The notes under the pieces were generated by a model, which saw only the letters and a program-made list of their open reading frames with translations, was not told where the DNA came from and did not search any database. Source: Chloroflexota bacterium (lineage in GTDB: Bacteria > Chloroflexota > Anaerolineae > UBA2200). Taken from it: a stretch of DNA of 64,000 nucleotides. Both the position numbers and the translations under genes were made by a program. The stretch is taken from the NCBI GenBank assembly GCA_014360905.1, contig JACIWW010000002.1, positions 124,001 to 188,000 of the forward strand, in the 5' to 3' direction. The stretch's first letter is position 1. Every line of letters starts with the position of its first letter. Positions 4,991 to 55,172 of this stretch are shown here, piece after piece.

Positions 4991-5082
4991 ATAGCCAGCG
5001 ATAAACATGGCTTGCTCGCCGAGCAACCAAATTTATAGACCATGGAATACATAACTCAACCGCAAAATTGGAGGGTGAACAA

Positions 5083-5865
5083 ATGAGCAATCTATCTGGA
5101 AAACGTGCTGTTATTTTGGCTGAAGATTTGTACCAGGAATTGGAGCTTTGGTATCCATTGCTCAGGCTGCGCGGTACAGGTATGGAAGTTCAGGTAGTGG
5201 GAACAGGTAGTGCCTCTGTCTACACGAGCAAATACGGATATCCTGTAGAAGTGGATACAACGGCGGACAAGGTCAATGCAAAGGACATAGATGCTATCGT
5301 GATCCCCGGTGGATATGCCCCCGATCGCTTGCGGAGATATCCTGCTGTGCTGAAGTTAGTTCGGGAAGCATTCGAGCAGGGCAAGGTGGTTGCTGCCATT
5401 TGTCACGCGGGTTGGGTACTTATTTCGGCTGACATCGTGAAGGGGCGTAGGGTAACCTCTTTTTCTGCGATCAAGGACGACATGGTCAATGCAGGAGGAC
5501 ATTGGGTAGACCAAGAGGTGGTACAGGATGGCAATTTGATTACATCGCGTCAGCCAAGTGACCTGCCAGCTTTCACTGATGCAATTATTGCTACGCTTGG
5601 CGGCATTGAAGCAGGCGGGTTGGAAAAAGTCACAGAGAAAACTAGGCCACTCGAAGCGCTACGCATGGCAATCCAAGCCGAAGAAGCGGCTTACAACTTC
5701 TATACTATGGCCGCCCAGAAGACCAAGGACGCGGAAGCGAAAAATATCTTCTATAACCTGGCACAGGAAGAGCAGCGTCATCGCTCTATTGTCCAAGATG
5801 AATACAACCGCCTGGCTATGAACCCGGATTGGGATCGCTACAGCATCTGGCGGGAGATCCTTTAG
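5083..5865 (+). CDS. DJ-1/PfpI domain fused to a rubrerythrin-like domain
   Basis: A 260-residue two-domain protein. Residues 1-180 are a DJ-1/PfpI (type 1 glutamine amidotransferase-like) domain with the nucleophile elbow AAICHAGW; C107 and H108 are the expected reactive pair. Residues 190-248 carry a half rubrerythrin/ferritin unit (AIQAEEAAYNFY, then LAQEEQRHRSIV), which has one E + ExxH pair and would need to dimerise to build a diiron site. DJ-1/PfpI proteins act as proteases, glyoxalases or deglycases; joined to a diiron module, the likely theme is oxidative damage. An in-frame TTG at 5068 overlaps the GGAGGG site, so ATG 5083 is the start. Confidence 0.85.
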   Translation: MSNLSGKRAVILAEDLYQELELWYPLLRLRGTGMEVQVVGTGSASVYTSKYGYPVEVDTTADKVNAKDIDAIVIPGGYAPDRLRRYPAVLKLVREAFEQGKVVAAICHAGWVLISADIVKGRRVTSFSAIKDDMVNAGGHWVDQEVVQDGNLITSRQPSDLPAFTDAIIATLGGIEAGGLEKVTEKTRPLEALRMAIQAEEAAYNFYTMAAQKTKDAEAKNIFYNLAQEEQRHRSIVQDEYNRLAMNPDWDRYSIWREIL

Positions 5866-7808: not shown

Positions 7809-7827
7809 CAGTCCGAAGGTGCATGTC

Positions 7828-9180
7828 ATGACGAAAAATCAACGCTTAGTAGTCATTGGCGCAGTTGCCGCGGGCACCAGTGCTGCAGCCAAAGCCAAGC
7901 GGACCAATCCAGAGCTGGAGGTGCTCCTGCTTGAACGTGATTCATACATTTCGTACGGTGCTTGCGGGCTGCCCTATTTTATTTCAGGCCTTATTCCTAG
8001 CGCAGATGCACTGATCGCGCGTAGCCCCAATGAGTTTCAGAAACAAGGCGTCGAAGTGCGGATCCGGCATGAGGTGCTCGAGATCAATCCACAAGATATG
8101 AGCCTTCGTGTAATTGACCACGAGCACACAAAAGAATACCGATTGCCATACGACTATCTAGTTGTCGCCACAGGTGCTACGTCTTTCCGTCCCCCAATCC
8201 CAGGACTTGACCTCCACGGTGTATTTACTTTGCGCACCCTGCACGATGGGTTGGCTTTGCAAGAGACCCTTAGGGAAAAACGCCCCAAGCACGTTGTCAT
8301 CATCGGCGGAGGATATATCGGGCTGGAAATGGCCGAGGCTTTTCGTGCTCTTGATCTGCCCGTGACGATCGTCGAAATGGCACCGCAACTCATGGTGAAC
8401 TTGGATGAAGACATGAGCAGATTGGTGCTTGCCGAAGTGGAACGCCAAGGCGTACGTGTGCTGCTCAACGATGGCTTGGTACGCTGTGAAGGGGCAAATC
8501 ACGTGGAAAAAGTGGTCACGCAGCATAATGAAATCTCAGCAGATTTGGTATTGCTGGCTATTGGTGTGCGCCCTAATGTCCAATTGGCGGAACGGGCTGG
8601 CGTTAAATTGGGCGCAGGCAAGGCCATCGGTGTGGACAATTATATGCGTACCAATCTAGAAAGCATTTACGCCGCTGGAGATTGTGCGGAAACTACCCAT
8701 GTCGTAACAGGCGAAAAAGTCTACATCCCCTTAGGCACGACGGCGAATAAACAGGGCAGGGTAGCTGGGGCGAATGTAGCAGGCATGAGCTGTACCTTTG
8801 AAGGCGTGGCAGGTACAGCAGTGGCAAAAATCTTTGGCTTGGAGGTAGCGCGCACCGGGCTGACCGAAAGAGAGGCCACCGCGAAGGGGTTCAGCGTGCA
8901 CACAGCCACCATTCGCACCACAGACCGCGCTCGTTACTATCCTGGTGCAACCGAACTGTACGTGAAATTGATCATGGAACGCACTTCCAGACGCTTGCTA
9001 GGTACACAGTTAATCGGTGCGCAAGGGGCGGCCAAACGCATTGATGTGCTCGCCGCTGCGTTATATGCGAAGATGACCGTGGACGACCTAACTCGACTTG
9101 ATTACAGCTATGCACCGCCATACGCCTCAGTGTGGGATGCGACGCTGATTGCAGCCAATGTGGCCAGCAGGTGCAGTTAG
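7828..9180 (+). CDS. CoA-disulfide reductase / NADH oxidase family flavoprotein
   Basis: A 450-residue FAD- and NAD(P)-dependent disulfide reductase. An FAD-binding GxxxAGTSAA segment is at 8-20 and the second dinucleotide fold (VVIIGGGYIGLEMAEAF) begins near 152. The single redox cysteine C46 (SYGACGLPYF) matches the CoA-disulfide reductase / NADH oxidase / persulfide reductase group rather than the CxxxxC lipoamide group. Near the C-terminus, LDYSYAPPYASVWD is the standard dimer-interface motif. Likely roles are reduction of oxygen, CoA-disulfide or polysulfide. ATG 7828 has AAGGTG six bases before; GTG 7819 is an alternative. It belongs with the redox genes on both sides. Confidence 0.85.
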   Translation: MTKNQRLVVIGAVAAGTSAAAKAKRTNPELEVLLLERDSYISYGACGLPYFISGLIPSADALIARSPNEFQKQGVEVRIRHEVLEINPQDMSLRVIDHEHTKEYRLPYDYLVVATGATSFRPPIPGLDLHGVFTLRTLHDGLALQETLREKRPKHVVIIGGGYIGLEMAEAFRALDLPVTIVEMAPQLMVNLDEDMSRLVLAEVERQGVRVLLNDGLVRCEGANHVEKVVTQHNEISADLVLLAIGVRPNVQLAERAGVKLGAGKAIGVDNYMRTNLESIYAAGDCAETTHVVTGEKVYIPLGTTANKQGRVAGANVAGMSCTFEGVAGTAVAKIFGLEVARTGLTEREATAKGFSVHTATIRTTDRARYYPGATELYVKLIMERTSRRLLGTQLIGAQGAAKRIDVLAAALYAKMTVDDLTRLDYSYAPPYASVWDATLIAANVASRCS

Positions 9181-9263: not shown

Positions 9264-11012
9264 ATGATGGCAACTGTTAACAACATGACCTTCAAATTCT
9301 CTGGTGAAGCCGGCCAGGGAATAGAATCCACCGGGAGGGGGTTTGCCAAAGCACTTGTACGTGGTGGTCTGTATGTATTCGGCCTGCAGGACTATCACTC
9401 TCGCATCCGTGGCGGTCACAATTTTTATCAGATCCGCGTGGCAGACCACGAAATCTACTCCCATGATGAGCAAGTGCATGTTTTGCTAGCCTTTACGAAT
9501 GAAGCCATTGCCGAACACTTGCAGGAGATTGTCCCCGGTGGCGGCGTCATTTACGACCCAGAGCTACAAATCAACCCAGCAGCCCTGGCAGCAAGATTTG
9601 TGCAGGCTTTTCCCGTTCCCCTGAACCAAATCGCTATGAAAGAAGGGGGAAATAAAGTTATGAGCAACACAGCAGCAACTGGCGCTGCTGCTGGGTTAAG
9701 TGGTTTTGACCTGGAAGCAATTAACAGCGTGATTCGTGATAACTTTGGGAAAAAGGGCCCCACCGTGGTAGAAAGCAATCTTAAGGTGGCAGCCGCCGCC
9801 TACCATTTTGTCAGAGAGAAATATGGTAGCTCGTTGACATTCCGATTGCAAGCACAAAAAGCAAAACCTCGTATGCTGATCAGTGGTAATGAAGCGCTGG
9901 CTCTGGGAGCACTTATGGCGGGGTGCAAGTTTGTTGCGGGCTATCCCATGACACCGGGCAGCCCTATCCTAGAATGGTTTGCCACCCATAGCAAGGACTA
10001 TGGTATCGTTACCAAGCATGCCGAGGATGAGATTGCGGCTATCAATATGGTCATAGGGGCAGCACAGATGGGCATACGAGCCATGACAGCTACCTCCGGT
10101 GGCGGATTCTCCCTCATGGTCGAAGCCCTGGGGCTGGCGGGCATGACCGAAGTCCCCATCGTCGTAGTCAATGCACAGCGACCTGGGCCAGCAACGGGCC
10201 ACGCTACTCGCCATGAACAAGGCGACCTGCTTTTCATGCTCTATGCTGCGCAAGGCGAGTTTCCACGCATCATCCTCGCGCCAGGAACGGTCGAGCAATG
10301 TTTTGAGGCTGCCTACCGCGCCTTCAATTTAGCCGAAAAGTATCAATGTCCGGCTATAATCCTTTCAGATGCATTCTTAGCACACTCGCCACGCGCTTTG
10401 GAGCTGGACACACTGCAACTGGATGTTCCTATTGACCGTGGTGAACTTCTTAGTGACGAGGAATTGGATCAGTTAACCGAGCGCTATCAACGCCACGCCC
10501 TCACCCCATCAGGCATTTCACCTAGAGCTTTGCCCGGACATCCTAAAGCAATCTACTCGACGTCTAGCGACGAACACGATGAGTACGGGCAAATTTGCGA
10601 GGATGCTGCTATCCGCACTCAGCAGATGGACAAACGTATGCGCAAGTTGGAGACAGCACGAGCGGAAATGAAGGCACCACTGCACTATGGCCCATCTCAA
10701 GCCGAAATCACTTTTCTGACCTGGGGATCTACCTATGGCCCCCTGCGCTCAGCTGTGGATATCCTGAATGCACAAGGCACGCCAGCCAACATTGTACAAA
10801 TCATGGATATCTGGCCTCTGCCTGTTGAGAAAGTGAGCCAAGCCTTGCGAGGAGCCAAAAAACTGATCAGCGTAGAGCAAAACTACAGCGGACAGTTGGC
10901 TACGTTAGTGCGGGCCTATACCGGGATCAAGATAGATGGCTTGATTAACAAATACGATGGACGACCTATGTCGCCTGAATACATCCTGTCCCGCCTAAAG
11001 GAGGTGGCATAA
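9264..11012 (+). CDS. korA: 2-oxoacid:ferredoxin oxidoreductase, fused gamma-alpha subunit
   Basis: A 582-residue protein with a gamma domain first (about 7-190, FKFSGEAGQGIESTGRGF, GGHNFYQIRV) and an alpha domain after it (about 203-582, SGNEALALGALMAGCKFVAGYPMTPGS, then EDEIAAINMVIGAAQMGIRAMTATSGGGFSLM). This gamma-alpha fusion is the layout of two-gene 2-oxoglutarate/2-oxoacid ferredoxin oxidoreductases (KorAB), which oxidatively decarboxylate 2-oxoacids with CoA and reduce ferredoxin. The beta subunit follows three bases later. No delta (2x[4Fe-4S]) subunit is present. In the reverse direction the enzyme could fix CO2. Substrate choice (2-oxoglutarate, pyruvate or branched-chain oxoacid) cannot be read from the sequence. 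Confidence 0.9.
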   Translation: MMATVNNMTFKFSGEAGQGIESTGRGFAKALVRGGLYVFGLQDYHSRIRGGHNFYQIRVADHEIYSHDEQVHVLLAFTNEAIAEHLQEIVPGGGVIYDPELQINPAALAARFVQAFPVPLNQIAMKEGGNKVMSNTAATGAAAGLSGFDLEAINSVIRDNFGKKGPTVVESNLKVAAAAYHFVREKYGSSLTFRLQAQKAKPRMLISGNEALALGALMAGCKFVAGYPMTPGSPILEWFATHSKDYGIVTKHAEDEIAAINMVIGAAQMGIRAMTATSGGGFSLMVEALGLAGMTEVPIVVVNAQRPGPATGHATRHEQGDLLFMLYAAQGEFPRIILAPGTVEQCFEAAYRAFNLAEKYQCPAIILSDAFLAHSPRALELDTLQLDVPIDRGELLSDEELDQLTERYQRHALTPSGISPRALPGHPKAIYSTSSDEHDEYGQICEDAAIRTQQMDKRMRKLETARAEMKAPLHYGPSQAEITFLTWGSTYGPLRSAVDILNAQGTPANIVQIMDIWPLPVEKVSQALRGAKKLISVEQNYSGQLATLVRAYTGIKIDGLINKYDGRPMSPEYILSRLKEVA

Positions 11013-11015
11013 ACC

Positions 11016-11888
11016 ATGGTCAGCCTGAAAGATTATCTCAGTCCTATGCGTCCCACTTGGTGTACAGGATGCGGCAACTTTGGCATCTGGAATGCCCTGA
11101 AGAAGGCGCTAGTTGAATCAGGATTAGAGCCACATCAAGTGATCCTGATCAGTGGCATAGGTTGTGGCTCGAAACTCCCTGACTATACCACCGCCAATGG
11201 CTATTTGAGCCTCCACGGACGTACTTTGGCAGTTGCAACTGGCGCGCGTCTGGCCAATCACGGGCTCAAGGTTATCTGTACCCATGGCGATGGCGATGGC
11301 TATGGAGAGGGTGGCAATCATTTTATCAGTGCCGTCCGCCGTAACATCGGCATCGCAGACATTGTGCAGAACAATCGCGTGTATGGGCTGACCAAGGGAC
11401 AATACTCTCCAACAAGCCCGCATGGCTTTGTAAGCAAAACATCGCCCCAAGGGGCTATCGAACATCCTTTTAATCCGTTAGCTATCGCCCTGGCAGCGAA
11501 CGGCACTTTTATCTCCCGTGGTTGGTCGGGAGATGTGGAACACCTGGCCTGGCTTATCAAGGAGGCACTGCAGCATCGTGGCTACGCTTTGATTGATGTG
11601 TTACAACCCTGCGTAACCTTCAACCGCATGTACTCGTATGAGTGGTTGCGTCCACGAGTGTACAAAGTGCAGGATGATCCAAATTACGATTCCAGTGATA
11701 AGGGGGCAGCTTTCGCCAAGGCGCAGGAATGGGGCGAGCGCATCCCCATCGGAATTATCTACCGCACGGAAGACGTCCCAGCATATGAGGAACAGGTGCC
11801 AGCATTGACACTCGGACCGCTGGTAAAACAACCCATTCGTGTGAAGCCAATGGCAGAATACGAACTACTGAAGCAGGAATATCTGTGA
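11016..11888 (+). CDS. korB: 2-oxoacid:ferredoxin oxidoreductase, beta subunit
   Basis: The 290-residue TPP-binding partner of the preceding fused gamma-alpha subunit. The N-terminus RPTWCTGCGNFG carries two cluster cysteines, ISGIGCGSKLP a third, and LQPCVTFN the fourth, consistent with the proximal [4Fe-4S] cluster. The TPP/Mg motif is GDGDGYGEGGNHF followed by VQNNRVYGLTKGQ. The ribosome-binding site AAAGGAGGTGG overlaps the end of korA, so the two are translationally linked. The next gene, a glutaredoxin-PDZ protein, starts 13 bases after the stop and appears to be in the same operon. Confidence 0.92.
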   Translation: MVSLKDYLSPMRPTWCTGCGNFGIWNALKKALVESGLEPHQVILISGIGCGSKLPDYTTANGYLSLHGRTLAVATGARLANHGLKVICTHGDGDGYGEGGNHFISAVRRNIGIADIVQNNRVYGLTKGQYSPTSPHGFVSKTSPQGAIEHPFNPLAIALAANGTFISRGWSGDVEHLAWLIKEALQHRGYALIDVLQPCVTFNRMYSYEWLRPRVYKVQDDPNYDSSDKGAAFAKAQEWGERIPIGIIYRTEDVPAYEEQVPALTLGPLVKQPIRVKPMAEYELLKQEYL

Positions 11889-11901
11889 GGAGGGAATACG
11901 T

Positions 11902-12396
11902 ATGGAGGTAACTGTATATACTACCAAAACCTGACCTTACTGTTATCAAGTGAAGGGGTTCCTTTCGCAAAGAGGAATTCCGTTTAAGGAATACGATGTC
12001 GGTATCGACCGGGAAGCAGCCCTCCGTATGATCCGCCTTTCTGGTCAACAAGGCGTGCCTGTTACCACTATTGATGACGAGGTTATCGTAGGATTTGACC
12101 GACGCCGTTTAGAAGAAGCATTGGCCAAAGCGCAAAGCCGTAAGCCTCCACTGGGCGTCGCAGTAGCAGATGCTACGGGAACCACAGAGGGTGCATACGT
12201 AGGGCGAGTAACCCCCTACTCTCTAGCAGAGAAAGCGAGTTTACAAGTCGGGGATGTCATTATCGAGATAGGCGGGCAACCTGTGCGTAATGCAGTAGAT
12301 TTGGAGCGAATTTACAAGAAGCTGCACACGGGTTCGCGCGTCGCGTTGATTTTCCTTCGCCAAGGACGGCTTACCCAAACCGAGTTATCCCTTTAG
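11902..12396 (+). CDS. Glutaredoxin-PDZ fusion with in-frame TGA: probable selenoprotein
   Basis: The frame opens at ATG 11902, six bases after GAGGAGGGA, and reads VTVYTTKT, then TGA at 11932-11934, then PYCYQVKGFL. The TGA sits exactly where glutaredoxins have the first Cys of CPYC, so reading it as selenocysteine gives UPYC at residues 11-14 and an intact 164-residue protein. The glutaredoxin fold spans 1-80 (GVPVTTIDDEVIVGFD is the cis-Pro/GF segment). Residues 88-164 form a PDZ domain (GAYVGRVTPYSLAEKASLQVGDVIIEIGGQPV). A hairpin suited to a bacterial SECIS follows the TGA. A start at GTG 11950 would lack the active site and a ribosome site. Expected role: thiol/selenol redox chemistry, possibly targeted to a partner by the PDZ domain. 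A TGC-to-TGA mutation or error is the main alternative. Confidence 0.8.
11932..11968 (+). promoter_or_regulatory. SECIS-like hairpin after the in-frame TGA
   Basis: Counting the T of TGA as 1, bases 19-37 fold as GTG (19-21) with CGC (35-37, one G-T wobble), AAGG (22-25) with CCTT (30-33), a single bulged T at 34, and the tetraloop GGTT (26-29). The loop starts with G and contains GU at 27-28. Loop position and small size fit what is known of bacterial selenocysteine insertion elements, where SelB reads an apical-loop G close behind the UGA. In Escherichia coli fdhF the bulged U is on the other arm, so this is similar but not identical. Confidence 0.55.
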
Positions 12397-12420: not shown

Positions 12421-12924
12421 ATGAACAATCGGATTGATGGTGCATTGAAGGCTTTGGAAGAAGCAAAATGCCTAGAGCAAGAAGGACAAGCTTTTTACAG
12501 TGAGGCGGCCAAAAAAGTCAAAGATGCGAAAGCTCAGGAGATGTTTCTCTCCTTGGCTAGGGATGAAACAATGCATGAGCGCCTCATCCAGCGACAGATT
12601 GATAACCTAGTTTCAACAAGCCAATGGGCAGAATTGCCCGAAACCAAGGGCGCCAAATGCGATCTGAGCCAGGATATTTTTCCACGAGGGCGCGCTGGAC
12701 TCCCCAAGGTACTCAATGCAGATCCCACTGAGACCGAAGTTCTGATCACGGCGCTTGAGTTCGAGGCAAAAAGCTATGACAAATATCGCCACGAAGCCGA
12801 GGTCTCAACGGACGCAGCAGCCCGTGAAATGTACGAGTTCCTCACCAGCCAGGAACGATTGCACTTTGACCTACTGATGACAAATTATGAATCTATGGTG
12901 CGTTACGGGGGCTGGGCTGATTGA
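12421..12924 (+). CDS. Rubrerythrin-like ferritin-family protein
   Basis: A 167-residue four-helix diiron protein. First half: AKCLEQEGQAFYSEAA and LARDETMHERLIQ. Second half: ALEFEAKSYDKYRHEAE and SQERLHFDLL. Each half supplies one Glu and one ExxH, giving a complete site in one chain. There is no rubredoxin tail, as in reverse or minimal rubrerythrins. It is a paralogue of the next gene (about the same length and plan). The position directly behind the glutaredoxin-PDZ gene suggests that the thiol/selenol protein and the peroxidase-type diiron proteins are made together. Confidence 0.83.
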   Translation: MNNRIDGALKALEEAKCLEQEGQAFYSEAAKKVKDAKAQEMFLSLARDETMHERLIQRQIDNLVSTSQWAELPETKGAKCDLSQDIFPRGRAGLPKVLNADPTETEVLITALEFEAKSYDKYRHEAEVSTDAAAREMYEFLTSQERLHFDLLMTNYESMVRYGGWAD

Positions 12925-12982: not shown

Positions 12983-13519
12983 ATGGAAAAAGCAGCGTGT
13001 ATGGCAGCGCTCACCGCGCTCGAAAAAGCCATGGAAGCGGAGCGGCAAGGCAAAGCCTTCTATGAGGAAGCCGCAGAGCGCGTTCAGGATCCAATGGGCG
13101 CGGCGGTGTTCAAAACCTTGGCTGATGATGAGATCAATCATTTGCGCCTATTGCAAGCGGAATATGAAAAGATCAGCAGTGATGATGAATGGATGGAACT
13201 AGATGAAGCCAAGGTCTGCGAACCGCAGACACCGCTCAAGCTCTTCCCTGATAAAAGGGAAGCCTCACTGATCCTGCCGGACAATGCCACGGATCTAGAA
13301 GCATTGCAAATGGCGATGCAGTTTGAGGAAATGGGGTACAATCTGTACGCCAAAGCCGCAAATGAAACCGACGATCCGAAAGGGAAAGAGGTATTCCGCT
13401 TCCTGGCCAGACTCGAAAACGAGCATTTTGTCTTCTTGCAAAAGACGCACGACTATCTGACGAACAAGGGGGTTTGGTACTTCGACGAGCAAGAGTTCCC
13501 CATGTTCGACGGAGGATAA
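12983..13519 (+). CDS. Rubrerythrin-like ferritin-family protein (paralogue)
   Basis: A 178-residue protein with the same two-half plan as its upstream neighbour: AMEAERQGKAFYEEAAERV, TLADDEINHLRLLQAEYEK, then AMQFEEMGYNLYAKAANE and FLARLENEHFVFLQKTHDYL. The E + ExxH pairs predict a diiron centre in the cytosol. No CxxC rubredoxin domain is present, so electrons must come from a separate donor; the nearby flavoproteins are candidates by context only. A GGGAGG site precedes ATG 12983. The repeat of two such genes suggests tandem duplication. Confidence 0.83.
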   Translation: MEKAACMAALTALEKAMEAERQGKAFYEEAAERVQDPMGAAVFKTLADDEINHLRLLQAEYEKISSDDEWMELDEAKVCEPQTPLKLFPDKREASLILPDNATDLEALQMAMQFEEMGYNLYAKAANETDDPKGKEVFRFLARLENEHFVFLQKTHDYLTNKGVWYFDEQEFPMFDGG

Positions 13520-40751: not shown

Positions 40752-42620
40752 ATGATCGTCGAAGTCAAATCACCAGTACCGAGCGATATTGAAATTGCTC
40801 AAGCGGCCAGACTGCGACCTATTCGTGAGGTGGCAGCTGAATTAGGCCTCTCAGAGGATGACCTTGACCTCTATGGCAAATACAAGGCCAAGGTTCATCT
40901 CGATGTCTTGGAGCGCTTGAAGGACCGCCCCAATGCCAAGTACGTTGATGTAACCGCTATCACCCCCACACCACTGGGTGAAGGCAAAACAGTAACTACG
41001 ATAAGCCTCAGCCAAGGCCTACATTATATCGGCAAAAAAGTTTTCACCTGTATCCGTCAACCCTCACAAGGTCCTACCTTCGGCATCAAGGGAGGTGCAG
41101 CCGGCGGCGGCTATGCCCAGATCGTCCCTATGGAGGACTTTAACCTGCACCTTACAGGCGATATCCATGCTGTAGGCGCCGCTAACAACTTGCTGGCTGC
41201 TGCCATTGATGCCCGCATCATGCACGAGGATGAGATGAGCGATGAGAGGCTGCTCAAAGCGCTCTGCCCAGATGACAAGTTTGCCCCCTGGATGTACAAG
41301 CGGCTGCAGAAACTGGGCATCAAAGCAGAGAAGCCGTCTGATTTGAGCCCTGAAGATAGGAGGCGCTTTGTCCGTCTGGACATTGATCCATACAGTATCA
41401 CTCTGAACCGCGTGATTGATATCAATGACCGGGCTATCCGTAATGTGGTTATCGGGCTGGGCACGAAAGACGATGGGCGACCTCGCCAAACCGGTTTTGA
41501 TATCACTGTCGCTAGCGAGGTGATGGCTATCCTGGCCTTGGCGACCAGTCTGAGGGACTTGCGTGAGCGCATCGGGCGCATGGTTGTTGGCACGGACAAG
41601 AACCACAATCCCATTACGGCTGAGGACCTTGGCGTAGCCGGGGCCATGACCGTCCTGCTTAAAGACGCGCTCATGCCTAACCTGATGCAGACCCTCGCTG
41701 GTACCCCAGCTTTTGTCCATGCCGGGCCGTTTGCCAACATCGCTCACGGTAATAACTCAATTATCGCAGACATGATCGGCCTGAAGTTAATCTCGGGCGG
41801 CTACCTGGTCACAGAGTCCGGTTTTGGTGCGGACTGCGGCATGGAAAAGTTCTTCGACATTAAGTGCCGTTACAGTGGGCTAATACCTAACTGCGTAGTC
41901 ATGGTTGCCTCTATCCGCGCTCTGAAGATGCACGGTGGTGGCCCAAGGGTGGTGGCTGGCGTTCCTCTCAACCCGGCTTACAAGCAGGAGAACCTCGAGC
42001 TTTTGGAGAAGGGTCTTTGTAACTTGGAAGCCAATATCAAGATTGCCCTCAAGTTTGGTATCCCGGTCGTGGTGAGCGTCAACAAGTTTAATACGGATAC
42101 GGCCAGAGAGATTGCGCTGGTAAAAGAAGCTGCCGTTGCTGCTGGCGCTGAGGTGGCCGTGGTCAATGAGGGGTGGGCGAAAGGTGAAGCTGGCGCTGCC
42201 GAACTGGCTGAAGCTGTGGTTGCTGCCTGCGAGAAGCCCAGCAACTTCCGGTTCCTCTATCCGCTGGATATACCGATCAAAGACAAGATCGAGATCATCG
42301 CCAGAGAAATTTATGGCGCTGACGGCGTTCTCTTTGAGGCAGCAGCTCAGCAAAAGCTCAAACTCTACACAGACCTTGGTTATGACAAACTGCCTATTAA
42401 TATGGCCAAGACCCATCTATCGCTGTCTCATGATCCAAACTGGAAAGGCGTGCCGAAGAACTACATGCTACCCGTGCGCGATATCCGTGCCTCAGTCGGT
42501 GCAGGATTCCTGTATCCGCTCTGCGGCGCCATGCGCACCATGCCCGGCCTGCCCTCCCGCCCTGTCTTCATGGACATTGACATTGACGTAGAGACTGGTA
42601 AGGTTTTAGGGCTGTCATAG
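40752..42620 (+). CDS. fhs: Formate-tetrahydrofolate ligase
   Basis: A 622-residue enzyme that makes 10-formyl-THF from formate, ATP and THF, the first THF step of the methyl branch. The nucleotide loop [13 protein letters not shown] (71-83) and the block [21 protein letters not shown] (split by the P-loop domain) are diagnostic. The protein is longer than the common form of about 557 residues, with extra sequence at the N-terminus ([18 protein letters not shown] is usual, the added parts are internal). It opens the carbon-fixation cluster; AAAGGAGG precedes the ATG. Confidence 0.96.
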
Positions 42621-42680
42621 CGCATGGATTGAGAGGTGGTGGAGCGCTGCTCCTCCACCTCTGCTATACATTTTGTGAAT

Positions 42681-42709
42681 TTCCAAAAAGGACTTATCTG
42701 TGCTATAAT
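42681..42709 (+). promoter_or_regulatory. Internal promoter before the HMA-like/CODH genes
   Basis: TATAAT (42704-42709) preceded by TGC (extended -10), with TTCCAA 17 bases upstream as a weak -35. Confidence 0.55.
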
Positions 42710-42718
42710 TCATCCAAA

Positions 42719-42737
42719 TAGGATAATTTTTATCCTA
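42719..42737. promoter_or_regulatory. Palindromic operator-like site
   Basis: Perfect inverted repeat TAGGATAA-TTT-TTATCCTA, starting about ten bases after the -10 box, at or just past the transcription start. A repressor bound here would block the promoter of the HMA-like/CODH/ACS genes. The regulator is not identified in this window. Confidence 0.6.
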
Positions 42738-42783
42738 ATACGGTCCCAGAGCGGCCGTGTATCCAAACCAAAGGAGGGGAAAG

Positions 42784-43122
42784 GTGCCGATGGAAAAGGC
42801 TGTTTTCGATGTGCCGAAAATGTATGCTGACCACCATGTAGAAGCAGTGCGCAAGGCTTTGCTGGAATTGCCTGGCATTGAGCAGATTACGGCGAGCAGC
42901 GCTCTGAAGCGCGTGGTGATAGTTTATAATGACGGGCAGCTGGCCCCTGGCGTTATTGAGCAGAGTCTCCGTGCAGCGGGCTATGCTCCTGGAGAAGAGT
43001 GGGAACTGCCCAAACTGCCTGAAGGTAAGGAAGACCACTCCCCGTGGTTCCAGGTCATCCCAAGGGTAACGACTACGGATAGACGTGACCTGGAAATGTC
43101 GGGAGATTTCCGCAAGTACTAG
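42784..43122 (+). CDS. HMA-fold protein lacking the CxxC metal motif
   Basis: A 112-residue protein. Residues about 4-66 follow the heavy-metal-associated (ferredoxin-like) fold: AVFDVPKMYADHHVEAVRKALLELPG, then VVIVYNDGQLAPGVIEQSLRAAGY. The usual MxCxxC loop is replaced by KMYADHH, so cysteine copper binding is not possible; His or Met may take over. The C-terminal 45 residues are polar and unknown. It is placed between fhs and the CODH gene, which points to a role in this Ni/Fe/Co pathway. GTG 42784 has AGGAGG six bases ahead; ATG 42790 is the alternative. Confidence 0.7.
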   Translation: MPMEKAVFDVPKMYADHHVEAVRKALLELPGIEQITASSALKRVVIVYNDGQLAPGVIEQSLRAAGYAPGEEWELPKLPEGKEDHSPWFQVIPRVTTTDRRDLEMSGDFRKY

Positions 43123-43169
43123 ATTCTGCAGTTAACCTACCAAGATTGCTATAGAAGGAGCAAGATCCA

Positions 43170-45137
43170 ATGACAGATCAAAAATCCATAGACCCAGCGG
43201 TGTGTGATTTGCTGGAAGTATGCGAATCCGAGGGTATTTCCACCGCTTTCGACCGCGCAGAACAAATGAAGCCATGTCCCATTGGCAGTAAAGGGGCTTG
43301 TTGCAAGAACTGTGCGATGGGCCCCTGTCGTCTCACTAAAGAAGGCCAGGTCGGTATCTGTGGGGCTACCATTGACACGGTAGCGGCACGTAACTTTGCG
43401 CGCATGGTTGCGGCTGGCTCTGCTGCCCATTCTGACCATGGCCGCGATATGGCGTTAACCCTTCTGGCAGCGGCCACAGGTCATGCTCCGGATTATGGCG
43501 TACGCGACGTGCGCAAGCTCTATGAAGTTGCCTCTTTTCTCGATGTCAAGACAGATGACCGCCCAATCAACGACATCGCCAAAGATGTAGCTGAGAAGGC
43601 TCTGATCGAATTTGGCCGCCAGCAGGGAGAGATCATCTACCTCAAGCGTGCGCCACACAAGCGCCAACAAATCTGGCAAAGCCTGGGCATTGCACCGCGT
43701 GGCATTGACCGCGAAGTGGTGGATATCATGCATCGCACTCACGCTGGAAACGATCAAGCCGTTGAGAGCCTTATGATGTCCGCACTGCGTACTGCCCTTG
43801 CTGATGGCTGGGGTGGCTCGATGCTTTCCACCGACATCACAGATATCCTTTTTGGCTCCCCTGTGCCACTCGTGGCCAGGGCGAACATGGGCAACCTCAG
43901 CGAAGACCAGGTGAATATCGTGATCCACGGCCATGAACCAACTTTGTCTGAGATGATTCTGGTTGCGGTCAACGATCCAGAGATGATTGAATATGCCAAG
44001 TCAAAGGGCGCTAAAGGCATTAACCTGACCGGCATTTGCTGCACCGCTAACGAGACATTGATGCGCCAAGGCGTGCCCACCATCGGCAATTTCCTCAGCC
44101 AGGAACTGGCCATTGCCACGGGTGCAGTAGATCTGATGGTTGTAGACATCCAGTGCATTATGCAAGCCTTGGCTCCCATGACAAAGCATTTCCATACTAT
44201 CCTGGTCACTACTTCTTCCAAAGCACATATTGATGGCACCACCCATATTGAGTTTGACGAGCACCATGCTGGAGAGATAGCCAGACAAATCGTGAAGATG
44301 GGCATTGACAACTTCCCCAACCGTGGAGACATGCATATCCCTAAGGATATTAGCCACCTGGTAGCTGGCTTCTCGCACGAGTATATCAACTATGCATTGG
44401 GTGGTTTCTACCGTGGCTCTTTCCGCCCCTTGAACGATGCCGTCATCCAGGGGCGGCTGCGCGGTGTTGCAGGCGTGGTTGGTTGCAACAACGCGCGAAC
44501 TTGCCATGACGCGGCTCATACCTATATTGTACGGGAGCTAATCAAGAATGATGTGTTGGTCGTGATGACTGGCTGTGGAGCGATTGCCTGTGCCAAATAC
44601 GGCTTCTTGTCCCCTGAAGCAGCGCAATACGCAGGGCCAGGGTTGCGCGAAATCTGCGAGGCAGTGGGCATTCCGCCAGTGCTACACATGGGCAGTTGCG
44701 TGGACAACACTCGCATCCTCACCGTGCTTAGCCAGATGGCTACGGAAGGCGGGCTGGGTCAAGACATTGCAGATATTCCGGGTGTCGGCTTTGCCCCCGA
44801 ATGGATGAGCGAAAAGGCGATCTCCATAGGTTGCTACTTCGTCGGTTCAGGAGTATATACCATCTTTGGCAGCGAATCGCCCGTAGCCAATAGCCCTGCT
44901 GTGGTGCGTTTTATGAGCGAGGGCTGGGAAGAGCGTGTCGGCGGCAAAATGGAATTCATTCCCGATCCAGAGGAAGCGGTGCGCAAAGCTTTGGAGCACA
45001 TTGACAAAAAGCGGGCTGCTTTAGGGCTGGTAGAATACGACCCAGCGCGCTATGGCCAAAGCGGCGATGCGCTCATGCTCAAGGTATTGGAGCAGGTAGA
45101 CGAAGGGACGCTCAATCTGTACAGCGCCAAATTGTAG
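43170..45137 (+). CDS. cooS: Anaerobic CO dehydrogenase catalytic subunit
   Basis: A 655-residue Ni-Fe enzyme interconverting CO2 and CO (acsA of the CODH/ACS complex). N-terminal cysteines C36 and C44 fit the D-cluster, C45, C48, C53 and C64 the B-cluster. Further blocks with C-cluster ligands are NIVIHGHEPTL, GINLTGICCTANE, DIQCIMQA, GVVGCNNARTCHD, VMTGCGAIACAKYG and LHMGSCVDNTR. Length and order match bacterial CooS/AcsA. It forms the core of the complex with the acsB product encoded 85 bases later. CO made here enters the ACS A-cluster. Confidence 0.97.
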   Translation: MTDQKSIDPAVCDLLEVCESEGISTAFDRAEQMKPCPIGSKGACCKNCAMGPCRLTKEGQVGICGATIDTVAARNFARMVAAGSAAHSDHGRDMALTLLAAATGHAPDYGVRDVRKLYEVASFLDVKTDDRPINDIAKDVAEKALIEFGRQQGEIIYLKRAPHKRQQIWQSLGIAPRGIDREVVDIMHRTHAGNDQAVESLMMSALRTALADGWGGSMLSTDITDILFGSPVPLVARANMGNLSEDQVNIVIHGHEPTLSEMILVAVNDPEMIEYAKSKGAKGINLTGICCTANETLMRQGVPTIGNFLSQELAIATGAVDLMVVDIQCIMQALAPMTKHFHTILVTTSSKAHIDGTTHIEFDEHHAGEIARQIVKMGIDNFPNRGDMHIPKDISHLVAGFSHEYINYALGGFYRGSFRPLNDAVIQGRLRGVAGVVGCNNARTCHDAAHTYIVRELIKNDVLVVMTGCGAIACAKYGFLSPEAAQYAGPGLREICEAVGIPPVLHMGSCVDNTRILTVLSQMATEGGLGQDIADIPGVGFAPEWMSEKAISIGCYFVGSGVYTIFGSESPVANSPAVVRFMSEGWEERVGGKMEFIPDPEEAVRKALEHIDKKRAALGLVEYDPARYGQSGDALMLKVLEQVDEGTLNLYSAKL

Positions 45138-45222
45138 ATACGATGATTCGCCAGGTTTGCATTCAGACTATTCCGGCCCCTGGCTGTACCAATTCCAATC
45201 AACGGAGATAAGGAGAGCATCT

Positions 45223-47505
45223 ATGTCAAGGTATATTGCAACCCGTGCCATCCGTGGTGCAAATCTGATCGTTGCCGAAGCCGAGAGGATACTAAAAGAG
45301 GCCCTCGAGGAGTTAGGTCCAGACACCCCAGTCAAGTTCACGAACACGGCTTACTATCTCCCTGTCATTCTGGCTTTCACGGGAAGAGAGGTGAGCAAAC
45401 TGGGTGACCTCGTGCCTGTCCTGGAGGATGCAAAACGGATTCTGCACCCCGTCCCAGATGACAAGCTATGGCTGCCCTATTTGGGCGAGACCCTGGATTG
45501 TGGCATGGCGACGCTCTTGGCTGAGGAAGCCATCGAGGGTATCCGCTTTGCGCGTGGCCTTGAACCACAACCCATTACTTGGGATGGCAGTTACATTCCC
45601 AGTACTAGTTTTACCTCCCCTGATATGGAAGCACAAGCGGGAAAACGCCTCAATGGTCCCATTGACGACATCCAATTGCGGGCTTGGGGTATCCAACTGG
45701 TAGATGGGCGCATGCCTGGCTTTGCTGCCATCGTTGGCTGCGCCAAGAGCAACGAAGTGGCGGTGCAGATCGTGCGCGAATTGCAGCAGCGCAACATCCT
45801 TGTCTTTCTGTGTGGCAATGTCAATGGGCGCAGCATCATTCACCAGTTGATGGAAGAAGGGGTTGAGATGGGGTATGATACCTATATCATCCCCTTTGGC
45901 ACGAATACCATTGCTGCTATCTATCCGCTGGGTTTTGCTGCCCGCAGCGCACTGACCTTTGGGGGTTTGAAGCCAGGACAAGCGCGCGAGATCCTCTTGT
46001 ATAACAAGTATCGCGTTTTCGCCTTTGTGTTGGCTTTGGGCGAAGTGGACGATTTGAAATATGCTACGGCGGCAGGTGCAATCAACTACGGCTTCCCCAC
46101 TATCGCTGATACGGTAATCCCGCAAATACTGCCCACGGGCATCACGACCTATGAGCACGTCATCAGCATGCCCTTTGACGACATCGAGGGAAAAGACGAT
46201 CTGGAACGTGCTAAGAGGTTAGTGCAACGCTGCATCGAAGTACGCGGGGTTAAGATTAAGATCACTGAAGTGCCCATCCCAGTGCCTTATGGTTCAGCCT
46301 TTGAAGGCGAGCGCGTGCGCAAGGCTGATATGCGTGTGGAATTTGGCGGTAAGTACAGCCGCTGCTTCGAATACTTGAAGATGTCAGATTTTGATGCCGT
46401 GGAAGACGGTAAGATCACAGTGGTAGGGCCTGGCTTCGAGGATGTGCTGCCAGAAGGGTCAATGGACATGGGCATCGTAGTTGAGGTAGCTGGGCGTAAG
46501 ATGCAGGAAGATTTTGAGCCCGTGTTAGAGCGGCAGATTCACTATTTCATCAACGGAGCGTCGGGCATCCAGCATATTGGCCAGCGCGATATTGCCTGGA
46601 TCCGTATCAGCAAAGCGGCAGCGGAGAAGGGATTCAAGCTGGAGCATTTTGGGAAGATCCTATATGCTCGTTTCCACGCTGACTTTGGCGCTATTGTGGA
46701 CAAGGTGCAGGTTACCATCTACACCGATAAAGCCAAGATGGAAGAATGGCTAGCGAAAGCCCGTGAGGCCTACGATCGTCGCAACAGGCGTCTGGCAGAC
46801 ATGACTGACGACTCAGTGGAAGAGTTCTATAGCTGCACCCTATGCCAAAGCTTTGCCCCCAACCACGTCTGCGTTGTCTCGCCGGAACGACTGGGGTTGT
46901 GCGGCGCTTACAACTGGCTGGACTGCAAAGCCTCCCACCAAATCAATCCCACGGGACCGAATCAGCCCATCAAAAAAGGAACCTGTGAGGATCCCGTTTA
47001 CGGAGTTTTCAGCGGGGTGAACGAGTTCGTGCACCAGCACTCGCACCAGTCCGTGCAGCAAGTTTCGATGTACTCTATCATGGTGAATCCCATGACTGCC
47101 TGCGGCTGCTTTGAGTGCATCGCAATGGTCATTCCAGAAGCCAATGGCATCATGGTTGTCTCCCGCGAAGACCCCAGCATGACGCCGGCAGGCATGACCT
47201 TCTCCACCTTGGCTGGCATGGCTGGTGGCGGATTGCAGACGCCCGGTGTCATGGGTCATGGTAAGTACTATCTGACGAGCAGAAAGTTTATCTCTGCGGA
47301 TGGCGGCTTCAAGCGCGTGGTCTGGATGTCTTCCTTCCTCAAAGAGACCATGGCAGAAGAGCTCAAAGTCGTTGCCGAGCGCGAGGGCGATCCAGATCTT
47401 ATTGATAAGATAGCCGACGAGCGCGTAGCTACGACCGTAGATGAACTTCTGCCCTACCTGGAGGAGAAGGGGCATCCCGCATTGACCATGCCGCCCTTGT
47501 TCTAG
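45223..47505 (+). CDS. acsB: CO-methylating acetyl-CoA synthase (ACS)
   Basis: A 760-residue enzyme that joins a methyl group from the corrinoid protein with CO and CoA. The A-cluster cysteines are in SCTLCQSFAPNHVC, RLGLCGAYNWLDC and the CGC of TACGCFECIAM. The N-terminal domain that binds CODH is present (GLKPGQAREILLYNKYRVFAF). ATG 45223 has AAGGAGAG upstream; the frame is open further but has no ribosome site. A terminator-like hairpin follows the stop codon. Confidence 0.96.
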   Translation: MSRYIATRAIRGANLIVAEAERILKEALEELGPDTPVKFTNTAYYLPVILAFTGREVSKLGDLVPVLEDAKRILHPVPDDKLWLPYLGETLDCGMATLLAEEAIEGIRFARGLEPQPITWDGSYIPSTSFTSPDMEAQAGKRLNGPIDDIQLRAWGIQLVDGRMPGFAAIVGCAKSNEVAVQIVRELQQRNILVFLCGNVNGRSIIHQLMEEGVEMGYDTYIIPFGTNTIAAIYPLGFAARSALTFGGLKPGQAREILLYNKYRVFAFVLALGEVDDLKYATAAGAINYGFPTIADTVIPQILPTGITTYEHVISMPFDDIEGKDDLERAKRLVQRCIEVRGVKIKITEVPIPVPYGSAFEGERVRKADMRVEFGGKYSRCFEYLKMSDFDAVEDGKITVVGPGFEDVLPEGSMDMGIVVEVAGRKMQEDFEPVLERQIHYFINGASGIQHIGQRDIAWIRISKAAAEKGFKLEHFGKILYARFHADFGAIVDKVQVTIYTDKAKMEEWLAKAREAYDRRNRRLADMTDDSVEEFYSCTLCQSFAPNHVCVVSPERLGLCGAYNWLDCKASHQINPTGPNQPIKKGTCEDPVYGVFSGVNEFVHQHSHQSVQQVSMYSIMVNPMTACGCFECIAMVIPEANGIMVVSREDPSMTPAGMTFSTLAGMAGGGLQTPGVMGHGKYYLTSRKFISADGGFKRVVWMSSFLKETMAEELKVVAEREGDPDLIDKIADERVATTVDELLPYLEEKGHPALTMPPLF

Positions 47506-47519
47506 AAGCGGGGCAAGTG

Positions 47520-47570
47520 GTGAGTAACGAATGATGAGCAATGAACTCTCACTCGTTACTCATCTTTTTT
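47520..47570 (+). terminator. Terminator after acsB
   Basis: Stem GTGAGTAACGA (47520-47530) / TCGTTACTCAT (47553-47563), 10 bp plus a G-T pair, with the inner part (TGA..GAG / CTC..TCA) also pairing. It is followed by C and TTTTTT (47565-47570). It sits inside the Wood-Ljungdahl run, so it may lower expression of the downstream genes relative to CODH/ACS. Confidence 0.72.
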
Positions 47571-47606
47571 GACCGAGCTTGGTTTTATCGCCACAATGGA
47601 GGGTGT

Positions 47607-48029
47607 ATGAAAGCGAACGAAGTTCAAACGTACGAAAAGCGCGTCGAGGATGTTATGCACTATGGCGTGATTACCTGCCGCACCTATACTTCATTGAAAG
47701 AAGCGGTGCGCATCATCACGGATACCGACGTACATGCTCTAGTTGTTATCCATGACAATGGAAATGTCGCTGGCATCGTTTCACACATGGATTTGCTTCG
47801 TCTGTACGGCTGCAATCTGCTCGAGTACAAAGCGGAAGATGTGATGACGCCGAATGTGATTACTATTAGCCCGGATGCACCCGTTAAAGAGGCAGTAGCC
47901 TTGATGCTGAAGCACAACATCCGACGGCTTTTGGTAACGGAAAAGACGCCGGAAGGCGAACGCCCCATAGGGGTGATATCCACAACCGATGTAATCAGAG
48001 ATATGCGAGAGCAGCCTTGGTTTTGGTAA
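47607..48029 (+). CDS. Two-CBS-domain protein
   Basis: A 140-residue protein consisting of a CBS pair: VEDVMHYGVITCRTYTSLKEAVRI ... VHALVVIHDNGNVAGIVSHMDLL and AEDVMTPNVITISPDAPVKEAV ... RRLLVTE ... PIGVISTTDVIRDM. CBS pairs bind adenine nucleotides (AMP, ATP, SAM) and regulate partner proteins. It has no attached enzyme or channel. Between acsB and acsD it is a candidate energy sensor for the pathway. ATG 47607 follows TGGAGGG; the open frame before it includes the acsB terminator. Confidence 0.87.
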   Translation: MKANEVQTYEKRVEDVMHYGVITCRTYTSLKEAVRIITDTDVHALVVIHDNGNVAGIVSHMDLLRLYGCNLLEYKAEDVMTPNVITISPDAPVKEAVALMLKHNIRRLLVTEKTPEGERPIGVISTTDVIRDMREQPWFW

Positions 48030-48103
48030 CCCATATGATGCCGAGTCCGAGATGATCCCTGTCTTTTTGATCTTTGTATCTTCGTGAAAGGAGATATTAC
48101 ACA

Positions 48104-49072
48104 ATGCCCATCGCAGTAGAAACCCCAAAAGAAAAGTGGACGGGTAAAGTGAGGGAAGTAAAATTAGGCGCGACTGCTGCTGAAGGAGGCACGCGACAGA
48201 GAACCGTTACAGTGGGAGGCGAGAGTACCCTGCCTTTCCTTACTTTCGAAGGCGATATCCCTAATCCACCTGCCATTGCAGTAGAGGTGCAAGATCGTTA
48301 CCCTAGTGATTGGTCTGCTGTCCTAAAGGCGGCATGGGGGGACGTGCTGAATGACCCCGCTGCCTGGGCTAAAAAAGCAGAAGAATACGGCGCTGACATC
48401 ATTGCGCTTAAGTTGCAAAGTGCCCACCCCGAGGGCGATAACACAGATGCAGCCCATGCTGTAGCCACGGTGAAAGCAGTGCTGGCAGCCACAGGGTTAC
48501 CCCTGATTGTCTATGGCCCGGGACAGGCCGAGAAGGACAATGAGGTGCTGGTAGCAGTTGCAGAAGCTGCCAAAGGTGAGCGCATTGCCTTGGGCAACTG
48601 CGAGGATAAAAATTATCGCACCATCGTCGCTGCAGCCCTAGCCAATGGCCATGTCGTGGTAGCCAAAACGCCTATTGACGTGAACTTGGCCAAACAATTG
48701 AATATCCTCATCAGCGACATGCGTCTGGATCTTGACCGAATTTTGATGGACCCAACCACAGGCGCACTGGGCTACGGCCTTGAATATACGTACTCGGTCA
48801 TGGAACGCCTCCGCCTGGCGGCATTGACAGGCGATAGCATGACCCAGCAGCCCATGATCTGTACAGTGGGTGAAGAAGCCTGGCGCGCAAAGGAGAGCAA
48901 GGTGAACGAAGGCGTGCCCGCAGCGTGGGGCAATTGGGAACGACGCAGCAGAAACTGGGAAGTTCTTACCGCCAGTACGCTGATCCAGGCTGGGGCGGAT
49001 ATTGTCGTGCTACGCCATCCAGAAAGCATCCATCTAGTCAAACAGACCATCTCGAACCTGATGGCGCGGTAA
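48104..49072 (+). CDS. acsD: Corrinoid iron-sulfur protein small subunit (CdhD/AcsD)
   Basis: A 322-residue TIM-barrel subunit of the corrinoid iron-sulfur protein, which carries the methyl group from methyl-THF to ACS. Recognisable blocks are LPFLTFEGDIPNPPAIAVEV, ADIIALKLQSAHPEGDNT, LPLIVYGPGQAEKDNEVL and ILMDPTTGALGYGLEYTYSVMERLR. It pairs with the large subunit encoded next. AAAGGAGAT precedes the ATG; an upstream extension to 48074 lacks a ribosome site. Confidence 0.94.
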   Translation: MPIAVETPKEKWTGKVREVKLGATAAEGGTRQRTVTVGGESTLPFLTFEGDIPNPPAIAVEVQDRYPSDWSAVLKAAWGDVLNDPAAWAKKAEEYGADIIALKLQSAHPEGDNTDAAHAVATVKAVLAATGLPLIVYGPGQAEKDNEVLVAVAEAAKGERIALGNCEDKNYRTIVAAALANGHVVVAKTPIDVNLAKQLNILISDMRLDLDRILMDPTTGALGYGLEYTYSVMERLRLAALTGDSMTQQPMICTVGEEAWRAKESKVNEGVPAAWGNWERRSRNWEVLTASTLIQAGADIVVLRHPESIHLVKQTISNLMAR

Positions 49073-49148
49073 AGCAATTTTGCTCTCCATGCGATTGCTT
49101 CTGAGCAACCATGACTCATCATTTATCTAAATCTAAGGAGCTAAAAAT

Positions 49149-50495
49149 ATGGGACTGAGCGGCCTTGATATCTACAAACTGTTACCGAAAACCAATTGCA
49201 AGGAATGCGGTCAACCTACTTGCTTGGCTTTTGCGATGAAGTTAGCGGCCAAGCAGGCTGAGCTATCTGCCTGCCCTTACGTTTCCGAAGAAGCAAAAGC
49301 CAAGCTCGCGGCTGCGGCAGCTCCTCCAATTCGCCTAGTGACTATTGGCACAGGGGACAAGAAACTGGAGGTCGGCAACGAAACTGTCCTGTTCCGCCAT
49401 GACAAAACTTTCTACCATCCACCCGGATTGTTCATACGCTTGAAAGATACCATGCCCTTGCCAGAGTTTGAAGCGATGCTCGAGCGCATCCGAGACTGGG
49501 GTGTCGAGCGTGTGGGCATTCCGTTGTGGATAACCGGTGTGGCGATTGAAAACACCTCTGGGGAGGCAGCCAACTTTGCTAAATACGTAGCTGCTGCCCA
49601 GGCCAAGCTGGCGCGACCACTTATTCTGATTGCCTCAGATCCCGGTTCCATGGCTGCAGCATTGCAACAGACCGATGGCTCTGCGCCCCTCGTTTATGCT
49701 GCCACTGCAGAGAATTGGCAGGCAATGGCCGAATTGGCAGCGAAGCACAAAGCACCCATTGCTGTCCGTAGCAATGGCGATCTGGGGATGCTGGCAGAAA
49801 TTGCAGAGAAGGTTAAGAACGCAGGCGTAGAAAACATCATCCTAGATCCAGGTGTTCGCGACCCACACGGCACGCTGGTAGCTTTAACCCAGTTACGCCG
49901 CCTCGCTCTGAAGAGCAATTTCCGTCCCCTCGGTTATCCGATCATCACTTTCCCAGGCGAAGGGGCACAATCGGAAGAGGAAGAAGCAATCCAGGCTGCT
50001 CAACACATCGCAAAATATGCTGGTGTGATTGTCCTCGATCACTTCGATCCAGCCACCATTTACCCATTGTGTACTCTGCGTCAAAATATCTACACCGACC
50101 CGCAAAAACCAATCCAGGTGAGCCCTGGTTTATACGAGATATCCAATCCTACTCCCGATTCACCGCTATTGGTCACAACGAATTTCTCGCTTACCTACTT
50201 CAGTGTAGCTGGCGAAGTGGAGGGAAGCGGCAAGCCCACATGGCTGCTCATTGTGGACTCAGAGGGCATGTCGGTGCTGACTGGTTGGGCAGCGGGCAAG
50301 TTTGATGCCGAGAAAATCGCCAAGTCAGTGCAGCAGTTCAATGTTCCCAGCAAGATTAACCACAAGAAAATCGTGATCCCTGGCCTCGTGGCCGCCATTT
50401 CTGGTGAACTAGAGGAGGAGTTGCCAGGCTGGGAAGTCCGTGTGGGGCCGCGCGAAGCCATAGATATACCAGCTTATTTAAAGACCTGGAGCTAA
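49149..50495 (+). CDS. acsC: Corrinoid iron-sulfur protein large subunit (CdhE/AcsC)
   Basis: A 448-residue subunit with an N-terminal [4Fe-4S] motif (C17, C20, C25, C42 in TNCKECGQPTC ... LSACP), a TIM barrel and a C-terminal B12-binding domain (from about 320, DSPLLVTTNFSLTYFSVAGEVE, then LLIVDSEGMSVLTGWAAGKF). The cluster keeps cobalt in the Co(I) state and the corrinoid shuttles the methyl group. It works with the acsE methyltransferase and the RACo-type activator encoded downstream. Confidence 0.95.
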   Translation: MGLSGLDIYKLLPKTNCKECGQPTCLAFAMKLAAKQAELSACPYVSEEAKAKLAAAAAPPIRLVTIGTGDKKLEVGNETVLFRHDKTFYHPPGLFIRLKDTMPLPEFEAMLERIRDWGVERVGIPLWITGVAIENTSGEAANFAKYVAAAQAKLARPLILIASDPGSMAAALQQTDGSAPLVYAATAENWQAMAELAAKHKAPIAVRSNGDLGMLAEIAEKVKNAGVENIILDPGVRDPHGTLVALTQLRRLALKSNFRPLGYPIITFPGEGAQSEEEEAIQAAQHIAKYAGVIVLDHFDPATIYPLCTLRQNIYTDPQKPIQVSPGLYEISNPTPDSPLLVTTNFSLTYFSVAGEVEGSGKPTWLLIVDSEGMSVLTGWAAGKFDAEKIAKSVQQFNVPSKINHKKIVIPGLVAAISGELEEELPGWEVRVGPREAIDIPAYLKTWS

Positions 50496-50499
50496 ACGC

Positions 50500-50559
50500 G
50501 TCGTGGGTTGCGGGTAGCGAGTGAAGATAAATCTAGAACCTGTAACCCACGACTTAATA
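50500..50559. repeat. Large inverted repeat between acsC and the hydrolase gene
   Basis: A 16-bp stem with two G-T pairs: the arm GTCGTGGGTTGCGGGT begins at 50500, and the other arm ends AACCCACGAC at 50544-50553; the loop is about 22 bases. No T run follows, so it is not a normal terminator. The arms resemble dispersed palindromic elements. It overlaps the longest possible version of the next gene and argues for its start at 50581. Confidence 0.6.
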
Positions 50560-50580
50560 CAAGCGAGAGGTTGGTTTCGA

Positions 50581-51624: not shown

Positions 51625-51628
51625 ACGA

Positions 51629-52207: not shown

Positions 52208-52208
52208 T

Positions 52209-54215: not shown

Positions 54216-54305
54216 TTCTGTAAGCTGTCGCAAACTGTGGTATTATCTATGGAACAAAATGTCCATACCCTGTTACTTTGAATATATGAGGAGTGCAGAA
54301 CGACG

Positions 54306-55070: not shown

Positions 55071-55172
55071 GCAGTGTGAATTGAGTGCAACGGCGTTTTC
55101 CACGAGTATGAAAAGCTAAGAGATATTGGATTCCAAGCATGTAAATATGACATATGACAAAAGGAGGATAAC

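Follow-up and report, generated by a model that had tools for sequence, protein, structure and literature searches.

The locus considered here raises the question whether a glutaredoxin (Grx) and a PDZ domain form one protein, and what such a protein may do. The window, i.e. the whole analyzed stretch of 64,000 nucleotides from an anaerobic Chloroflexota bacterium (contig JACIWW010000002.1, positions 124,001 to 188,000), had been read by the first-pass annotation as carrying an HtrA-like PDZ domain behind a cytosolic Grx, a layout assigned to no standard family. The fusion was suggested to direct the reductase to specific partners.

Gene and domain architecture

The gene grxPDZ (11902-12396, + strand) is predicted to encode 164 amino acids with selenocysteine (Sec) as residue 11. 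Standard ORF calls all fall short of this length, since codon 11 (11932-11934) is an in-frame TGA, the sole interruption of the frame opened by ATG 11902. A mechanical ORF call begins at GTG 11950 and loses the glutaredoxin active site. A GGAGGG motif resembling a ribosome binding site is located at 11889-11894, immediately behind the stop codon of korB, with 7 nt between it and the ATG. With the TGA read as Sec, the product is MEVTVYTTKTUPYCYQVKGF...TELSL, 164 residues long. The residues originally quoted for the PDZ domain (12160-12396) are found there on the + strand and in frame; they represent most of this domain, at the C-terminal end of the longer gene.

The glutaredoxin domain (PF00462, YruB-like subtype) covers residues 3-62 (11908-12087, + strand) with 59.8 bits, the Pfam cut-off being 22.9. 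The thioredoxin fold, the CxxC or UxxC site and the cis-Pro VP loop of glutaredoxins are all present, and U/C11, C14 and V52-P53 are invariant in the alignment. The PDZ domain of HtrA type, with an xLGxxV carboxylate-binding loop, covers residues 83-164 (12148-12393, + strand). PDZ_2 (PF13180) matched with 40.4 bits (cut-off 27) and places the domain start slightly before 12160, at 12148. PDZ (PF00595) and PDZ_6 (PF17820) also exceeded their Pfam cut-offs. Within the carboxylate loop (Phi-G-Phi), L84-G85 is invariant in 22/22 rows of the homologue alignment. A larger alignment has G85 constant in all 48 rows, and the alpha-B helix, which lines the groove, is among its less conserved parts.

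AlphaFold2 on the family alignment yielded a mean pLDDT of 89.8 and a pTM of 0.55; the model predicts two well-formed domains with an unsure mutual placement. Foldseek aligned the Grx half with cGrx1 from Clostridium oremlandii (7c10; TM 0.92 on target, rmsd 1.2 A, 46% identity) and the PDZ half with PDZ domains of HtrA, DegP and DegQ. The PDZ assignment of the first-pass annotation is confirmed by both searches. Its description of a fusion without protease or signal peptide holds as well: the grxPDZ protein has no protease domain, and the first Grx strand lies right at the start, with no N-terminal extension fit for a signal peptide. Both domains were matched in 22/22 homologues scanned, and the combination recurs across the Chloroflexota; the fusion is therefore genuine, and chance is excluded.

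Selenocysteine at the active site

Codon 11 is predicted to encode Sec, because the TGA aligns with Cys in homologues, a covarying bSECIS hairpin accompanies it in TGA genes, SelB and tRNA-Sec are present in the genome, and Sec and Cys change places on the family tree. The TGA (11932-11934, + strand; predicted active site U-P-Y-C) occupies the position of the first Cys of CPYC; 34/49 distinct proteins of the tree have the TGA, and 15/49 have Cys. SelB was matched with 347.6 bits (cut-off 242), and the tRNA-Sec carries the anticodon UCA.

A search of the window against Rfam gave nothing at gathering scores, so an alignment was used to test for the bSECIS. The bSECIS hairpin, GUGAAGG-GGUUC-CUUUCGC (11950-11968, + strand), has 7 bp and a G in the loop, and begins 15 nt past the UGA. 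One hairpin starting at this distance is possible in 34/34 distinct TGA genes, with 6-7 of 7 pairs and an apical G in each of the 34; most follow the consensus G-Y-GAAAG / CUUUC-R-C with a GU loop. In the 15 Cys genes, the same region forms 2-6 of 7 pairs and has no fixed apical G. The pairs covary (C-G/U-A 16 to 12; also A-U/G-C), and the paired cells (96.3%) and covariation surpass those of each of the 500 shuffles and of all slid versions. The 61-nt segment of the window, folded alone, favors a neighboring hairpin, while the family hairpin is still possible with 7/7 pairs. The grxPDZ hairpin agrees with the published description of bSECIS elements, namely a G in the first two loop positions, a distance of 16-37 nt from the UGA and a stem of 4-16 bp (PMC13188914). 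A true stop at the TGA, leaving a truncated product from GTG 11950 with a dead Grx remnant and the PDZ domain, would agree with standard gene calling, which yields exactly this ORF, but it is very hard to reconcile with the downstream frame, UxxC motif and covarying bSECIS kept in 34 distinct TGA genes, with the occurrence of Cys forms, and with SelB and tRNA-Sec both in the genome.

On the tree of 49 distinct proteins, at least 7 Sec/Cys exchanges are counted, and at least 4 of them are forced by supported branches. Within one genus, near-identical Grx-PDZ proteins occur as a Cys form (L118) and as Sec forms (L120 and L122), and the Cys gene has no SECIS hairpin; the difference is a recent Sec/Cys switch. 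A loose scan of the window for other selenoprotein candidates revealed no further convincing in-frame TGA.

Distribution

Full-length Grx-PDZ proteins were recovered in 21/100 close relatives of the window's genome and in about 40/400 genomes spread over the Chloroflexota. One other phylum, the one to which locus L068 belongs, was covered with 398 genomes; no match over the full length reached 1e-30 there, and the matches at this level were single Grx domains only. The contig search matches with both domains in one frame were all from Chloroflexota, namely L022 and L023; L022 is a MAG of the same genus (JACIWX010000003.1, 80% identical). In viral contigs, the 80 best matches were relatives of the Grx domain only. 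Methanoregula-type archaeal matches (L024-L067) were considered as further members and rejected. They share the Grx subtype (about 45-56% identical), but those with a second domain carry the Grx N-terminal to a TrxB-like flavoprotein instead of a PDZ domain, i.e. they are Grx-thioredoxin reductase fusions of about 382 aa and were not counted. A single-domain Grx of 78 aa (L123, G094:C73:8147-8377) has an in-frame TGA at the equivalent codon (UPYC), is 58% identical and lacks a PDZ domain.

Eight genomes of one genus (f53/g115) carry Grx-PDZ together with 23-53 reductive-dehalogenase matches each. They look like Dehalogenimonas, a name that we infer. In Candidatus Chlorohelix allophototropha, Grx and PDZ are encoded by two adjacent genes in the same frame, separated by TAG and 12 nt (L354:4995-5540, plasmid NZ_CP128401.1), near genes for rhodanese, TusA, DsrE and trxB. 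This pair is the fusion in a naturally split state, which may be either ancestral or derived.

Genomic neighborhood and candidate clients

The gene order in the window's lineage is korA-korB-grxPDZ-ferA-ferB, often with a CoA-disulfide-reductase-like flavoprotein and a nitroreductase upstream. In the window, the following genes are on the + strand. An FAD/NAD disulfide oxidoreductase of the CoA-disulfide reductase/NADH oxidase kind (7819-9180), a partly conserved upstream neighbor, precedes korA (2-oxoacid:acceptor oxidoreductase alpha, 9264-11012) and korB (2-oxoacid:ferredoxin oxidoreductase beta, 11016-11888), which adjoins grxPDZ. Two rubrerythrin/ferritin-like proteins are encoded downstream by ferA (12421-12924), which has a GGAGG of its own and starts 24 nt past the grxPDZ stop, and by ferB (12983-13519), with a conserved PMFDGG tail. 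By our own count over the examined loci, 7/22 families have kor genes near grxPDZ, which either precede it or, as at L142 and L187, follow it; ferritin-like genes are nearby in 7/22 families. In L200, a Dehalogenimonas-like genome, a pair resembling indolepyruvate oxidoreductase, assigned by reading the sequence, lies just upstream instead.

Elsewhere in the window, a DJ-1/PfpI domain is joined to a C-terminal rubrerythrin-like domain (5068-5865, + strand); three loci of the same family (L132, L133 and L135) have matches at the equivalent position. The ORFs at 40752-56093 (+ strand), judged by reading their sequences only, resemble a Wood-Ljungdahl cluster with formate-THF ligase, CO dehydrogenase/acetyl-CoA synthase subunits, a corrinoid protein, a methyltransferase and an activator.

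Among the 100 relatives, a close KorB was present in 18/21 Grx-PDZ genomes vs 9/79 others (Fisher p ~1e-10) and FerB in 18/21 vs 11/79 (p ~1e-9), both p values exaggerating the strength of the link since shared ancestry was uncorrected. The C-terminal tails of both neighbors were compared as possible PDZ ligands. KorB has a hydrophobic end in nearly all Grx-PDZ genomes, and likewise in genomes without Grx-PDZ. The FerB tail P-F/M-F-E/D-G is equally conserved in both groups, so the proposed check on the rubrerythrin tails, carried out by sequence, provides no evidence of PDZ recognition. The tails are general features of their families, and the comparison speaks neither for nor against recognition. 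The suggested targeting to specific partners is plausible by the invariant L84-G85. Outside the window's class, the neighbors of grxPDZ are mostly unrelated; for this reason operon neighbors are not universal clients. Clients among the operon neighbors seem rather unlikely. The narrower proposal, in which the PDZ domain docks the Sec glutaredoxin on the tail of the 2-oxoacid:ferredoxin oxidoreductase or of the ferritin-like proteins and reactivates them after oxidation, is improbable; we know of no other redox repair guided by C-terminal recognition.

Proposed function and electron supply

Taken as a whole, the explanation toward which we lean, with some reserve, is a cytosolic selenol reductase fed by thioredoxin reductase, whose PDZ domain would hold clients by their C-terminal tails. 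The selenol at the attacking position of U-P-Y-C in the N-terminal Grx would reduce disulfides or other oxidized thiols on clients. Re-reduction would involve thioredoxin reductase and not glutathione, the electrons passing from NADPH to TrxB. The PDZ domain would grip clients, or a scaffold, by the C-terminal tail, raising the local reductase concentration at the targets.

Thioredoxin reductase is probably the electron donor. It is above cut-off in 20/21 Grx-PDZ genomes, a glutathione synthetase model is above cut-off in 0/18 (other synthesis routes or uptake are outside this model), and the archaeal Grx-thioredoxin reductase fusions point the same way. GSH or some other small thiol may be required, because structures with bound GSH exist for cGrx1, the closest relative with a solved structure (reference 109 as cited in PMC13188914). 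CoA, via the neighboring flavoprotein, is a possible second electron route. Peptide gripping by the PDZ domain is likewise probable, judged by the carboxylate loop xLGxxV, whose invariance in the 22-row alignment argues that binding has been kept; the lower conservation of the alpha-B helix counts against it.

In the window's lineage, the run of kor, grxPDZ and ferritin-like genes points to oxygen-labile central enzymes that would be kept working after oxidant exposure. Protection of 2-oxoacid:acceptor oxidoreductases has precedents. In Campylobacter, oxygen quickly abolishes the activity of Por and Oor, and di-iron hemerythrins protect both enzymes (PMC4257069). A disulfide of the Desulfovibrio PFOR, Cys1195-Cys1212, has been tied to protection from oxidative stress (Vita 2008, as cited in PMC8945911).

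The PDZ domain might instead serve self-association or control, either by binding a second copy at its hydrophobic C-terminus or by capping the Grx site, with redox state or a peptide switching the activity. HtrA proteases have PDZ domains with a regulatory role, most homologues end with a hydrophobic residue (L, F, V, I), and the pTM of 0.55 leaves the domain arrangement free. The C-terminal residues, however, make up the final PDZ strand in the predicted structure, and a few members end with RR, G or A, which makes this role rather doubtful. A redoxin that relays sulfur or handles persulfides, with oxidized client proteins being secondary, is similarly unlikely. It would suit the split genes of Candidatus Chlorohelix allophototropha, which lie just past the rhodanese gene and near TusA, DsrE and trxB; this protein, however, is a Cys form and only 40% identical, and by inspection no rhodanese, TusA or DsrE was identified beside the gene in the window's lineage or noticed at the other loci examined.

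Relation to known proteins and significance

The reductase proposed above has several partial relatives. cGrx1 (UxxC Grx, PDB 7c10/7c12) is listed in its native form as a Grx selenoprotein (reference 85 as cited in PMC13188914). It shares the fold, and its solved Cys form shares the CPxC site and the VGFDR motif, but it is a single domain without PDZ, with 84 residues in the solved chain. The Trx7/PDZ (seleno)protein NF041199 likewise joins a redoxin to a PDZ domain within a selenoprotein. It differs in having a Thioredoxin_7 redoxin, Sec as the second residue of the pair (listed as CxxU; PMC13188914) and a model length of 390 positions. The match of the window protein to this model is confined to the PDZ part (30.5 bits, cut-off 300), and the window protein is not a member. 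NCBIfam models nearest to the Grx part are YruB (TIGR02196), the top family match with 83.4 bits (cut-off 88.55), and the UXX-star model NF041212 with 63.1 (cut-off 66), each just below cut-off. TIGR02196 is a single-domain model of 74 positions. The UXX-star models (NF041212, NF041114, NF041211, NF047338) describe Grx-like proteins with Sec, but have 70-71 positions and no PDZ domain, and the window protein is below all their cut-offs. The PDZ part is nearest to HtrA-type proteases in NCBIfam; HtrA, DegP and DegQ share this PDZ type by sequence and fold, but Grx-PDZ lacks their protease domain and export signal.

Grx selenoproteins and the Trx7/PDZ selenoprotein are already known (PMC13188914, PMC9312934); a Grx-PDZ entry was not found in the selenoprotein lists of these two papers. 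A literature search for the combination produced nothing relevant, most subscription papers being outside its reach, so that a description there is possible. In agreement with the first-pass annotation, no family model or paper describing the layout was found. Grx-PDZ is well supported as a new domain architecture of a Grx selenoprotein; the same applies to the gene and its Sec, and client targeting is put forward as a hypothesis.

Standard gene calling cuts grxPDZ at the UGA, and the redox active site is missing from the predicted protein. Grx-PDZ makes it possible to test whether a redoxin can select its clients via a PDZ domain. As the Dehalogenimonas-like hosts point to a genus with cultured strains, the protein can be sought directly. 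The switches between Sec and Cys within the family, with and without the hairpin, amount to a natural experiment on the reasons for retaining Sec.
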